From: an uncultured Arenicella sp.
GTDB taxonomy: Bacteria > Pseudomonadota > Gammaproteobacteria > Arenicellales > Arenicellaceae
Length of the DNA stretch: 36,537 bases
NCBI GenBank assembly: GCA_937989675.1
Contig: CALKRK010000007.1
Span: 1-36,537 of the forward strand
Reading direction: 5' to 3'
Shown here: piece by piece, positions 10,422-14,350 of the stretch
How the letters are laid out: every line of letters starts with the position of its first letter
How positions within the stretch are numbered: the stretch's first letter is position 1
Translations under genes and position numbers: made by a program
Notes under the pieces: model-generated
Database searches by the model: none
What the model was told of the DNA's origin: nothing
What the model saw: the letters and a program-made list of their open reading frames with translations, nothing else

Positions 10422-11279
10422 TTACGCAACCAGTTGACCTTTCATCTTTTGCATTGCGCGTTTTTCGATCTGGCGAATTCGCTCTGCAGAGACATTGTAC
10501 TCGGCTGCCAACTCATGCAACGTGGATTTGCTTTCACCTAACCAACGACGCTGTAGTATGTCTTTGCTGCGATCATCCAAGTCTTCAATCGCGGCATATA
10601 GCGCTTGTTTATTATTGTCGCTGTTTTGCGTCTTCATAACCAGCTCTTCTGGGTTATAACGCATGTCAGGTAAATAACCTGATGGGCTCGTTGTGAACTC
10701 ATCATCATCGCTATCAACGCCATCGAATGCGACATCTGTTGACGTCATGCGTTGCTCCATCTCGCGAACAGTTTTGACAGGCACATCCAGGTTGGATGCT
10801 AAGTCCTGTGTTTCTTGCTCGGTCATGGCCGCTAAAGATTTACGTGCTTTACGTAAATTGAAGAACAGTTTGCGCTGCGCTTTGGTTGTTGCGACTTTTA
10901 CGATCTTCCAGTTTTTTAGTACATATTCGTAAATTTCGGCTTTGATCCAGTGAACTGCATACGAGACCAAGCGGATCCCGCGTTCAGGATCAAAGTTTTT
11001 AACAGCTTTCATCAAGCCAATATTACCTTCCTGAATGAGGTCAGCAACCGGTAAACCATAACCAGTAAAACTCTTAGCCACGTGAATGACATGGCGAAGT
11101 TGCGATACAACTAATTGGCGTGCAGCATCAACATCATCATCATCGCGGAAGCGGCGTGCAAGGCGAGCTTCGTGCTCCGCCGTCAACACAGGTGCATTAT
11201 TGGCAACTTGTAGAAAACCTGCCAAATTGGTGTCTTGAGGCAGAGATACAGGGTTAGCTTTACGTGTATTTGTAACCAT
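10422..11279 (-). CDS. rpoH: Heat-shock sigma factor RpoH (sigma-32)
   Basis: The 285-residue protein shows region 2 (ADLIQEGNIGLMKAVKNFDP, then GIRLVSYAVHWIKAEIYEYV), the RpoH-specific box KAQRKLFFNLRK, and a region 4 helix-turn-helix near the C-terminus (LHELAAEYNVSAERIRQIEK). It directs RNA polymerase to chaperone and protease promoters. AGGAGAAAC precedes the ATG. Gene order ftsY-ftsE-ftsX-rpoH is conserved in gammaproteobacteria. A perfect CIRCE sequence lies about 77 bases upstream, which would place this sigma factor under HrcA repression in addition to any post-transcriptional control. A strong terminator follows. Confidence 0.96.
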   Translation of the reverse strand: MVTNTRKANPVSLPQDTNLAGFLQVANNAPVLTAEHEARLARRFRDDDDVDAARQLVVSQLRHVIHVAKSFTGYGLPVADLIQEGNIGLMKAVKNFDPERGIRLVSYAVHWIKAEIYEYVLKNWKIVKVATTKAQRKLFFNLRKARKSLAAMTEQETQDLASNLDVPVKTVREMEQRMTSTDVAFDGVDSDDDEFTTSPSGYLPDMRYNPEELVMKTQNSDNNKQALYAAIEDLDDRSKDILQRRWLGESKSTLHELAAEYNVSAERIRQIEKRAMQKMKGQLVA

Positions 11280-11355
11280 TTATGTTTCTCCTAGACTCTT
11301 TCGAGTGCTTTTCAGAGGCTGCTAATCATTAGCAACGTGATCTATGAACAGCAGT

Positions 11356-11382
11356 TTAGCACTCAAGAGTGGCGAGTGCTAA
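11356..11382 (-). promoter_or_regulatory. Perfect CIRCE element (HrcA operator) upstream of rpoH
   Basis: TTAGCACTC, nine bases, then GAGTGCTAA matches the textbook CIRCE consensus TTAGCACTC-N9-GAGTGCTAA at all 18 conserved positions. It lies 76 bases before the rpoH start, overlapping a possible -10 hexamer. HrcA binds CIRCE and represses, classically groESL and dnaK operons. The palindrome reads the same on both strands, but rpoH is the only gene it could serve here, since ftsX ends toward it. Confidence 0.9.
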
Positions 11383-11407
11383 TAAATATAATTTCTGTTA
11401 AAAGCAA
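11379..11407 (-). promoter_or_regulatory. Possible sigma-70 promoter of rpoH
   Basis: On the minus strand TTGCTT (11407-11402) and TATTAG (11384-11379) are separated by 17 bases. The -10 hexamer overlaps the first CIRCE arm, which fits repression by occlusion. Both hexamers are imperfect, so the exact promoter is uncertain. Confidence 0.4.
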
Positions 11408-11438
11408 AAGTTTTAATAACTGATAGTTATTAAAACTT
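11401..11438 (-). terminator. Long A+T-rich perfect hairpin, probable ftsYEX terminator
   Basis: AAGTTTTAATAACT-GAT-AGTTATTAAAACTT is a perfect 14-bp inverted repeat with a 3-base loop; on the minus strand it is followed by TTTGCTTT. It lies about 200 bases after the ftsX stop and immediately upstream of the rpoH promoter candidate. It could terminate ftsX transcription, or be a protein-binding palindrome in the rpoH regulatory region. The remaining 11440-11634 holds nothing I recognise. Confidence 0.5.
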
Positions 11439-11634
11439 GCTTCATTTTGGCAATTAATTAGGCAAATGATCATTAAGTGTGCCCGCTCACCTCTGTTTAA
11501 CAGCGTGTTCGCGACTGCCCGGAAGGCCTGACTTATATCACCATTGCCTGTGCAGAACTCAAGACCGGTTCCGAATCATTTTTATGGCTTCAGCTATTTT
11601 TCCGACTTTACCGCGCCGTTTAGCGGTTCAAAGT

Positions 11635-12564
11635 TTAGCGAGGTTGAATTTTGCGTAGGTGTTGGGCAACCGACCAACGAGCTGCGAGCCAGCCGATAAC
11701 GCCGCCGCAAAGTACGATAGTCAATAACTCCCATCCCGTGACGGCGTGCAGAAGGGCGTTTGTTTGATAGAGCGATGCCAGCTCTTGTAACGGTTGCGCA
11801 ACTAATTCGGAGGCCAGCAATAAAAGCCCAAGGGTAATGAGAGAGCCGAGTATGCCGAATAAGGTGCCGTAGTAAAGAAATGGTCTACGTACAAAGGTAT
11901 CTGTACCACCGACTAATTTGGTGATCTCGATTTCGTGGCGTCGGTTAAAGATCAGCAGTTTGATTGTATTGCCAACAATGAGAATGAGGCCGATGCCAAG
12001 CAGTGCGCTAAGCAGTAAGGCAACTCGGGTAAAGGCCTGGAGTATGGCGTTGAAGCGCTCGGTCCAGTCTAAATCTAAGCGAATGGTGTCGATGCCGTCA
12101 AAGCTGCTCAGTTCGTCTTTAAGTGCTTGTAGCTTAGCTGATGCGGATGATTCGATAACCGGCATAACCACAATGGATGGCGGAAGTGGGTTTTCCCCCA
12201 AGAATTCGATTTCTTGATCCAGTGAGTTTTTCTCATCACCGCTAAGAATACGAAATTCTTCCAGCGCTTGATCCGGAGAAATAAATTCAGCGAGCTCAAT
12301 TGCTGGGTGTAGCTGTATTTCTTCAAATATTAGCTGTGCGGTATTGTCGCTGACATTCGCTTGTAAAAAAATGGATATTTGGGGGCGACCCTGCCAATTT
12401 TGGCTTAAGCCTTGGGCACTTTTCACCGCAATATATAGTAAGCAAGGAAGCAATAAGGTAATGGCGATAATCAATAGAGTATTAATAGTGGCCATTGGTG
12501 TGCGCCGCATATCGCCGAGGGTTGCGAACAAAACCTGTAGATGACGAGTTAGATAAGTCAGCAT
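11635..12564 (-). CDS. ftsX: Cell-division protein FtsX
   Basis: The 309-residue membrane partner of FtsE has a first helix at about 24-45 (TLLIIAITLLLPCLLYIAV), a large periplasmic domain (about 50-170), then three more helices (ALLLSALLGIGLILIVGNTI; LFGILGSLITLGLLLLASEL; LLTIVLCGGVIGWLAA). The cytoplasmic NRRHEIEITKLVGGT segment is typical of FtsX and couples it to the ATPase. FtsEX sits at the divisome and controls septal peptidoglycan hydrolases and constriction. The start codon overlaps the ftsE stop as TAATG, so the two are translationally coupled. Confidence 0.95.
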   Translation of the reverse strand: MLTYLTRHLQVLFATLGDMRRTPMATINTLLIIAITLLLPCLLYIAVKSAQGLSQNWQGRPQISIFLQANVSDNTAQLIFEEIQLHPAIELAEFISPDQALEEFRILSGDEKNSLDQEIEFLGENPLPPSIVVMPVIESSASAKLQALKDELSSFDGIDTIRLDLDWTERFNAILQAFTRVALLLSALLGIGLILIVGNTIKLLIFNRRHEIEITKLVGGTDTFVRRPFLYYGTLFGILGSLITLGLLLLASELVAQPLQELASLYQTNALLHAVTGWELLTIVLCGGVIGWLAARWSVAQHLRKIQPR

Positions 12565-13271
12565 TAGCTCAGCTCCAGATCTGAAGCTACCTGTTCGGTA
12601 TCTTCTATGGATTCTGCGGGCTCGACAATCTCTCCGTTCGCTAGATGGATCGTACGTTTGCTGAGCCGCTCGACTTGGCGAAGGTCGTGGGTGGCGATAA
12701 GCACGGTTACACCAACTTGGTTAAAGTCCGCAAATATATCGATGATTTCATCAGAGAGCGCTTCGTCTAAATTCCCAGTCGGTTCGTCGGCCAACAAAAT
12801 ATTGGGGCGATTAATGACCGCGCGTGCGATGCCAACCCGCTGTTGTTCGCCGCCAGACAGGGTGATGGGCAATTGTTTTTCCTTGCCTGATAGGCCAACC
12901 TTACCAAGTGCCGCACGAACGCGTTTTTTAATTTCGTCGTGTGGCATGCCGATTACAATTAGAGGTAGCGCCACGTTATCGAAGACCGAGCGATCCATTA
13001 ATAGCTTGTGATCTTGAAAAATCACACCAATTTCTCGCCTAAGAGCCGGAATTTTGGCGCGGCTTAAGCGCCCCAAATTCTGATTATCGACAATGATTTG
13101 CCCGGAAGTGGGCTTTTCAATGCGTGTAATTAATTTGAAGAGGGTGCTTTTACCGGCGCCGGAATGGCCGGACAGAAATGCCATTTCACCAGCGTCCAGA
13201 TCGAAGCTGATATCTTTTAGGGCTTCGTGCCCATTTGGGTAGCGTTTTGTAACGTGGCTTAATTTGATCAT
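12564..13271 (-). CDS. ftsE: Cell-division ATP-binding protein FtsE
   Basis: This ABC ATPase of about 235 residues shows Walker A SGHSGAGKST, Q-loop VIFQDH, signature LSGGEQQRVGIARAV, Walker B ILLADEPTGNLD, and the H-loop in LIATHD. The ORF track begins at TTG 13280; the usual FtsE N-terminus MIKLSHVTKRYPNG argues for the ATG at 13271. It overlaps ftsX by one base and follows ftsY closely. With FtsX it forms a non-transporting ABC complex at the septum. The C-terminal tail (VEPAESIEDTEQVASDLELS) is slightly longer and more acidic than in E. coli. Confidence 0.95.
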   Translation of the reverse strand: MIKLSHVTKRYPNGHEALKDISFDLDAGEMAFLSGHSGAGKSTLFKLITRIEKPTSGQIIVDNQNLGRLSRAKIPALRREIGVIFQDHKLLMDRSVFDNVALPLIVIGMPHDEIKKRVRAALGKVGLSGKEKQLPITLSGGEQQRVGIARAVINRPNILLADEPTGNLDEALSDEIIDIFADFNQVGVTVLIATHDLRQVERLSKRTIHLANGEIVEPAESIEDTEQVASDLELS

Positions 13272-13282
13272 GGATGACAAGC

Positions 13283-14350
13283 TTACAGATTATCGAGGTC
13301 AGGCACCAACGCATTTGCGAATGCCTGTGCTTCAAATGCTTGTAGATCGTTAAAGCCTTCGCCCACGCCAATATAGCGGATAGGTAGTTGGTGTTTTTGC
13401 GTGATCGAAATGGCCAGACCGCCTTTGGCTGACCCGTCTAGCTTGGTCAGACAAACGCTTGTAACACCAACGGCGTTTTTGAAATGTTCCAGTTGTGATA
13501 AGGCATTCTGACCAGTGCCAGCATCCAGAATCTGCATAACTTCATGGGGCATTGAGGGGTCGAGGTTTGAGAGCACTCGATTAACCTTTTGCAGTTGCTC
13601 CATTAAGTCGGATTGAGTGTGCAGACGCCCTGCGGTGTCTATCATCAATACGTGTGTGCCCTTCACGATAGCGGAATTTAGAGCATCGTGGGCGACGGCT
13701 GCGGCATCCGCGCCATGACCTTGTGCTACCACAGGGATATCTAGTCGTCGGCCCCACTCTTGAAGTTGGTCAACCGCAGCGGCTCTGAATGTATCGGCTG
13801 CCGCAAACATAACGGATTTGCCCTGATCTTGAAACTGTTTTGCTATCTTTGCCGTAGTAGTGGTTTTGCCGACGCCGTTGACGCCGACCATTAGCATTAC
13901 ATAGGGGCGTTGGTGCATTACGTTCCAGGGTTGTTCGGCTGGTTTTAGCATTTCGGCGATTTCAGTTCGCAAGCCAGCGATAACACCTGCTGCATCCTGA
14001 ATCTTGTCGTTCTTAACGCGCGCTCTTAGCCGCTCAACCAAGGCTAGGCTGGCGTCAACGCCAATGTCGCTGGTAATAAGTGCTTCTTCTAGTTCGTCAA
14101 ATAGATCGTCGTCAAGACTAAAAGAGCCCTTGAAGACGTTGCCTATTTTTCCAAACAGGCTAGAGCGGCTTTTATTAAGCCCTTCTTCGACAGTGGCAGG
14201 CTCTGCGTTAATCATAGCCTCAGCGGAGTCGTCTGTACCTTTGTTATCTGAGCCTCGACCGAAAAAGCGCGAAAAGCCACTCTTCTTCTTTGTCTGTGTG
14301 TCTTCTTGATCAGGTTTAACTTGGTTTGGCGGCGTATTGGAATCGGTCAT
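13283..14350 (-). CDS. ftsY: Signal recognition particle receptor FtsY
   Basis: This 355-residue GTPase docks SRP-ribosome complexes at the inner membrane. An acidic/basic A-region of about 60 residues precedes the N domain and G domain. Motifs are GVNGVGKTTTTAKIA (G1), AADTFRAAAVDQL, DTAGRLHTQSDLM (G3) and TKLDGSAKGG (G4). The A domain is short compared with the E. coli protein (497 residues), as is common in other gammaproteobacteria. It is the first gene of the ftsYEX unit and is divergent from rsmD across a 75-base gap that must carry both promoters. Confidence 0.96.
   Translation of the reverse strand: MTDSNTPPNQVKPDQEDTQTKKKSGFSRFFGRGSDNKGTDDSAEAMINAEPATVEEGLNKSRSSLFGKIGNVFKGSFSLDDDLFDELEEALITSDIGVDASLALVERLRARVKNDKIQDAAGVIAGLRTEIAEMLKPAEQPWNVMHQRPYVMLMVGVNGVGKTTTTAKIAKQFQDQGKSVMFAAADTFRAAAVDQLQEWGRRLDIPVVAQGHGADAAAVAHDALNSAIVKGTHVLMIDTAGRLHTQSDLMEQLQKVNRVLSNLDPSMPHEVMQILDAGTGQNALSQLEHFKNAVGVTSVCLTKLDGSAKGGLAISITQKHQLPIRYIGVGEGFNDLQAFEAQAFANALVPDLDNL

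Follow-up and report, generated by a model that had tools for sequence, protein, structure and literature searches.

The rpoH locus and its CIRCE operator

The window, that is, the whole 36,537-nucleotide stretch of DNA from an uncultured Arenicella sp. that was analyzed, encodes the heat-shock sigma factor sigma-32 (RpoH), whose translation contains the RpoH box QRKLFFNLRK as AQRKLFFNLRK. Three genes, ftsX, ftsE, and ftsY, lie upstream of rpoH on the same strand (Table 1) and are its usual neighbors. Between ftsX and rpoH is a CIRCE element, TTAGCACTC-N9-GAGTGCTAA, which agrees with the initial annotation in having no mismatches, a 9-base spacer and a gap of 76 bp to the rpoH start codon. This is the sole match in the window even when up to three mismatches are allowed (shuffled sequences gave a mean of 0.01), and base composition alone puts the probability of a perfect match within 400 bp at about 6 × 10⁻⁹. 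Since no other long ORF among those of the window begins near the element, rpoH is its only candidate target.

Table 1. Features at the rpoH locus (window coordinates; a dot marks features given no strand).
Feature	Position	Strand	Basis
rpoH, sigma-32, 285 aa	10422..11279	-	NCBIfam PRK06596, 395 bits (cut-off 241); TIGR02392, 373 bits (cut-off 323)
Putative -10 hexamer TAAACT (TAA[A/T]AT in relatives), overlapping CIRCE right arm	11353..11358	-	Conserved flank
CIRCE operator, proposed HrcA site	11356..11382	.	18/18 match; arms invariant in genus
Putative weak -35 TTAGCA, start of CIRCE left arm	11377..11382	-	Sequence and spacing only
AT-rich block, possible UP element	11383..11403	-	Position conserved in 18 genus genomes
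Perfect inverted repeat	11408..11438	.	14-nt arms, 100% complementary
ftsX	11635..12564	-	TIGR00439, 294.6 bits
ftsE	12564-13280	-	Over cut-off
ftsY	13283-14350	-	Over cut-off

Several other elements surround the operator. The inverted repeat upstream of it, AAGTTTTAATAACT-GAT-AGTTATTAAAACTT, has a core, ATAACTnnnAGTTAT, that is found at the same offset in several members of the genus, and it is possibly the operator of another regulator. A short palindrome, TGCTAAT-C-ATTAGCA, is situated between CIRCE and the rpoH start (11320-11334), and similar palindromes are present in two other genus members, at loci L118 (G003) and L120 (G008). These two loci, along with L115 (G016), L117 (G006), and L119 (G005), also have a sigma-32-like promoter (11-13 of 13 positions) 78-97 bp before CIRCE, suggesting that rpoH is autoregulated by sigma-32 in these five sister species. 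We rejected such a promoter for the window, where the best match is just 7/13.

HrcA and other CIRCE sites in the same genome

The proposal in the initial annotation that HrcA acts at this site depends on the presence of hrcA in the genome, and the gene is present and intact: its ORF of 347 residues matches PF01628 over the full length of the model (1-215) with 213.6 bits. It lies beside what we take, from its sequence, to be an NAD-kinase-like gene. Exactly two perfect CIRCE sites were found in the assembly (3.58 Mb, 80% complete), the one at rpoH and a second upstream of groES on contig C282. No CIRCE was found at hrcA itself in this 80% complete assembly; in some other families of the order hrcA does have one. 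A site with three mismatches on contig C21 (L003) was discounted, as it has no adjacent rpoH or groES and is at the background level of the reversed pattern. The only HSP70-family match in the 80% complete assembly is partial (40.6 bits) and dnaK is not in the assembly. The HrcA regulon of this genome, dnaK being absent from the assembly, appears to consist of groESL plus rpoH.

Conservation of the rpoH operator

The arrangement is conserved throughout the order. Of the 40 rpoH-bearing genomes, 39 have a CIRCE with no more than one mismatch at a distance of 38-349 bp upstream of their rpoH match, and the 40th (G022), which was looked at separately, has a site too, a perfect one. Within the genus, CIRCE is just upstream of rpoH in all 18 genomes; all 18 arm positions are invariant across them, and the 9-base spacer varies (0.07-0.7 bits per position, mean about 0.3). 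As a control, the reversed pattern gave no matches in the 41 genomes of the order plus 40 named genomes. hrcA was detected in 39 of the 41 genomes of the order, the two without it being 78% and 88% complete. With hrcA present in the window's genome and CIRCE kept in 40/40 rpoH-bearing genomes of the order, the link between the HrcA and sigma-32 circuits proposed in the initial annotation is therefore well supported by comparative evidence.

To the order we added a separate, wider sample of 78 named GTDB genomes, found through RpoH. A CIRCE at rpoH was present in 36 of the 47 genomes that have hrcA vs. 3 of the 31 that do not (Fisher p = 6 × 10⁻⁹, kinship ignored), an association that is confounded with phylogeny. 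The three genomes with the site and no detected hrcA are MAGs of 1.7-2.9 Mb. Among the named genomes carrying the site are those of Dyella, Methylocaldum, Pseudoalteromonas, Nitrosomonas, Pandoraea, Trinickia, Herbaspirillum, Polynucleobacter, Pseudacidovorax, Uliginosibacterium, and Rhodocyclaceae, while Vibrio, Shewanella, Haemophilus, Aeromonas, Photorhabdus, Serratia, and Dickeya, among others, have neither hrcA nor the site. The remaining 11 of the 47 genomes with hrcA, including Xanthomonas, the sampled alphaproteobacteria and others, have no CIRCE at rpoH. The arrangement is thus common across beta- and gammaproteobacteria with hrcA and not peculiar to the window's genome. At two loci from Lysobacteraceae and Luteimonas, L102 (1948) and L055 (1934), the rpoH CIRCE is altered in both arms, symmetrically so in L102 (CACTC to CAGTC and GAGTG to GACTG), which suggests a shifted HrcA specificity.

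Promoter anatomy at rpoH and groES

We compared 81 rpoH sites with 56 groES sites aligned on CIRCE; since related sequences inflate the p values, these are descriptive. The two sets show different designs around the operator. At rpoH sites the right arm runs on as GAGTGCTAA[A/T]AT: AT at positions +28 and +29 occurs in 67/81 rpoH sites vs. 0/56 groES sites (p = 2 × 10⁻²⁵, inflated by relatedness) and 0/6 hrcA sites, and T at +29 alone in 74/81 vs. 6/56. As this flank is specific to rpoH sites, it is expected to be a feature of the rpoH promoter and not of HrcA recognition, and its best reading is a sigma-70-like -10 hexamer, TAA[A/T]AT. Alone in its genus, the window carries C at +28. The overlap of CIRCE with a candidate -10, as initially annotated, is plausible, the best-supported -10 being this conserved flank (TAAACT in the window), but neither a consensus sigma-70 promoter at the 9/12 limit of our scan nor a terminator was found in 11200-11700, and the putative hexamers in TTAGCA-N18-TAAACT match at only 4/6 each. 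In the genus an AT-rich block, consensus TTTTAACAGAAATTAAATTTA, occupies a fixed place from -21 to -1 of CIRCE, with a mean AT content of 89%, where rpoH sites from elsewhere and groES sites average 58-59%.

At groES sites (e.g., L002, L181, and L203), a promoter-like sequence, CTTGAA/CTTGACT...CC[C/A]TATTA, stops right before CIRCE, and the combination looks like joint control by sigma-32 and HrcA.

Many rpoH loci outside the genus have a further promoter-like sequence. The sigma-E -35 motif GGAACTT (at least 6/7) is found in 27 of these 63 loci, starting 16 or 17 bp before CIRCE and hardly ever at another position, and TCTnA spans the CIRCE left arm and spacer, also in 27/63; the two motifs co-occur (p = 0.01, inflated by relatedness). 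Examples include L029, L034, L048, L086, and L095. Together these motifs resemble a sigma-E promoter on which CIRCE is superimposed. We rejected a promoter of this type for the window's genus, where GGAACTT is found in 0/18 genomes; as a rule the genus lacks both motifs and has instead the AT-rich block and a palindrome around -41.

Most Pseudoalteromonas species have one CIRCE, at rpoH

In 20 of 21 Pseudoalteromonas species there is exactly one CIRCE (up to two mismatches) per genome, and in all 20 it lies 32-36 bp before rpoH (L205, L260-L278). All 21 species encode HrcA, although with scores of just 28-48 bits (L279-L291), and the strongly diverged protein retains the DNA-binding motif. Compared with the HrcA of the window's genome, the Pseudoalteromonas proteins are 40% identical in the DNA-binding region and 19% identical in the remainder, vs. 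61% and 54%, respectively, for HrcA from other families of the order. At the one hrcA locus inspected (L279), the gene adjoins nadK-like and grpE-like genes. Since only the CIRCE at rpoH has been kept in these species, the HrcA-rpoH link can outlive CIRCE at the chaperone genes, and Pseudoalteromonas would provide a clean test system for control of rpoH by HrcA.

Proposed regulation of rpoH and alternatives

Our main reading, to which we give a probability of roughly 85%, is that the element is a true HrcA operator, through which rpoH is repressed by promoter occlusion and, on heat, derepressed together with groESL. At normal temperature HrcA bound to CIRCE would keep RNA polymerase off the rpoH promoter; the operator's right arm overlaps the putative -10, and its left arm may coincide with the weak -35. 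The HrcA family is characterized by GroEL dependence and heat lability. By analogy with known HrcA systems, heat shock would inactivate the repressor through GroEL titration or through its own heat lability, so that groESL and rpoH would be derepressed together. Sigma-32 would then transcribe the wider heat-shock regulon, and once GroEL is refilled HrcA activity would be restored. What the sequences show is the site next to rpoH, the hrcA gene, the conservation of the site and its co-occurrence with hrcA, and the promoter-like flank found only at rpoH; we infer HrcA binding, the rpoH start point, repression and its relief on heating. Because the close relatives all share this arrangement, as do many beta- and gammaproteobacteria with hrcA, the HrcA and sigma-32 circuits very probably act in series in these bacteria.

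A more tentative extension, for which we would put the odds a little short of even, is that in beta- and gammaproteobacteria with hrcA the CIRCE arms themselves supply core promoter hexamers of rpoH, such that promoter and operator would be one object. The right arm would contribute to the sigma-70 -10, TAA[A/T]AT, and in many lineages the left arm to a sigma-E -10, TCTnA, with GGAACTT upstream at sigma-E spacing. A single repressor would thus gate both the housekeeping and the envelope-stress input into sigma-32, and in Pseudoalteromonas this would be the one CIRCE-linked task left to a rapidly diverging HrcA.

The strongest alternative, which we consider unlikely but deserving of some weight, is that HrcA does bind but does no more than trim basal transcription, with rpoH output depending mostly on other promoters (read-through from ftsYEX, sigma-E, sigma-32) and on the stability or translation of sigma-32, as in E. 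coli. Consistent with this, ftsX ends 252 bp before CIRCE on the same strand, the five sister species listed above have sigma-32-like promoters upstream of CIRCE, and the sigma-E -35 is present at the 27 loci outside the genus; some transcription of rpoH may indeed come from farther upstream, from ftsYEX or other promoters, past the reach of HrcA. However, the genus-wide invariance of 18 positions and the retention of CIRCE at rpoH alone in Pseudoalteromonas suggest that the site matters strongly for fitness, and where CIRCE overlaps the sigma-E promoter, as in many lineages, HrcA would block that input too.

Far less probable is a role at the RNA level, with the palindrome forming a stem-loop in the leader of rpoH that affects stability or serves as a thermometer, in place of a role as DNA operator. 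There are precedents for such roles, as E. coli rpoH leaders carry RNA thermometers and CIRCE in the 5′ leader affects mRNA stability in Bacillus subtilis. The arm letters are, however, conserved across the 18 genus genomes beyond what pairing alone would require, the site tracks hrcA, the conserved flank suggests a -10 and with it a start point downstream of CIRCE, and no Rfam family matches at E-values up to 1; we rejected an RNA element on these grounds. Finally, a chance match or decayed remnant, for which we saw no support, can be dismissed, as the site is perfect where 0.01 matches are expected in the window, and its conservation in all 40 rpoH-bearing genomes of the order refutes that reading.

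Comparison with known systems

HrcA and CIRCE control the groESL and dnaK operons in Bacillus subtilis, Caulobacter, and others. The operator and the repressor family are the same here, and groES in the window's genome bears the same site; in contrast to the chaperone operons that are the classical targets, the target here is the gene for the heat-shock sigma factor. The place of the operator also differs, as it lies over the putative -10 at rpoH and directly after a -10-like element at groES.

The link between CIRCE and rpoH has already been predicted for at least one other bacterium, the deltaproteobacterium Geobacter sulfurreducens (Rodionov et al., 2004, Table 8; PMC545781). Like the window's genome, it is listed there with a perfect CIRCE, 51 bp before rpoH, with hrcA, and with CIRCE at groESL; unlike in the window's genome, where hrcA has no CIRCE, there is also a site at hrcA-grpE-dnaKJ (PMC545781). 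The promoter architecture seen here is not among the features that Table 8 describes for G. sulfurreducens (PMC545781). A limited search of the literature found neither the composite promoter nor the single-site Pseudoalteromonas case. A 2003 survey of beta-, gamma-, and epsilonproteobacteria by Permina and Gelfand is reported to cover the groups that show the arrangement here and may already list rpoH as an HrcA target.

E. coli shares the gene order ftsYEX-rpoH with the window. It has no hrcA (it is absent from the control list of our HrcA search), and its rpoH has sigma-70 and sigma-E promoters and no HrcA control; the sigma-E -35 is seen in many of the related loci examined here. Sigma-32 in E. 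coli is controlled post-transcriptionally, through translation and stability. In textbooks, repression by HrcA and activation by sigma-32 appear as two alternative strategies of the heat-shock response. Should HrcA control rpoH across the beta- and gammaproteobacteria that have it, the two strategies would be successive steps of a single cascade, and the scheme of E. coli may be derived, having arisen after hrcA was lost.
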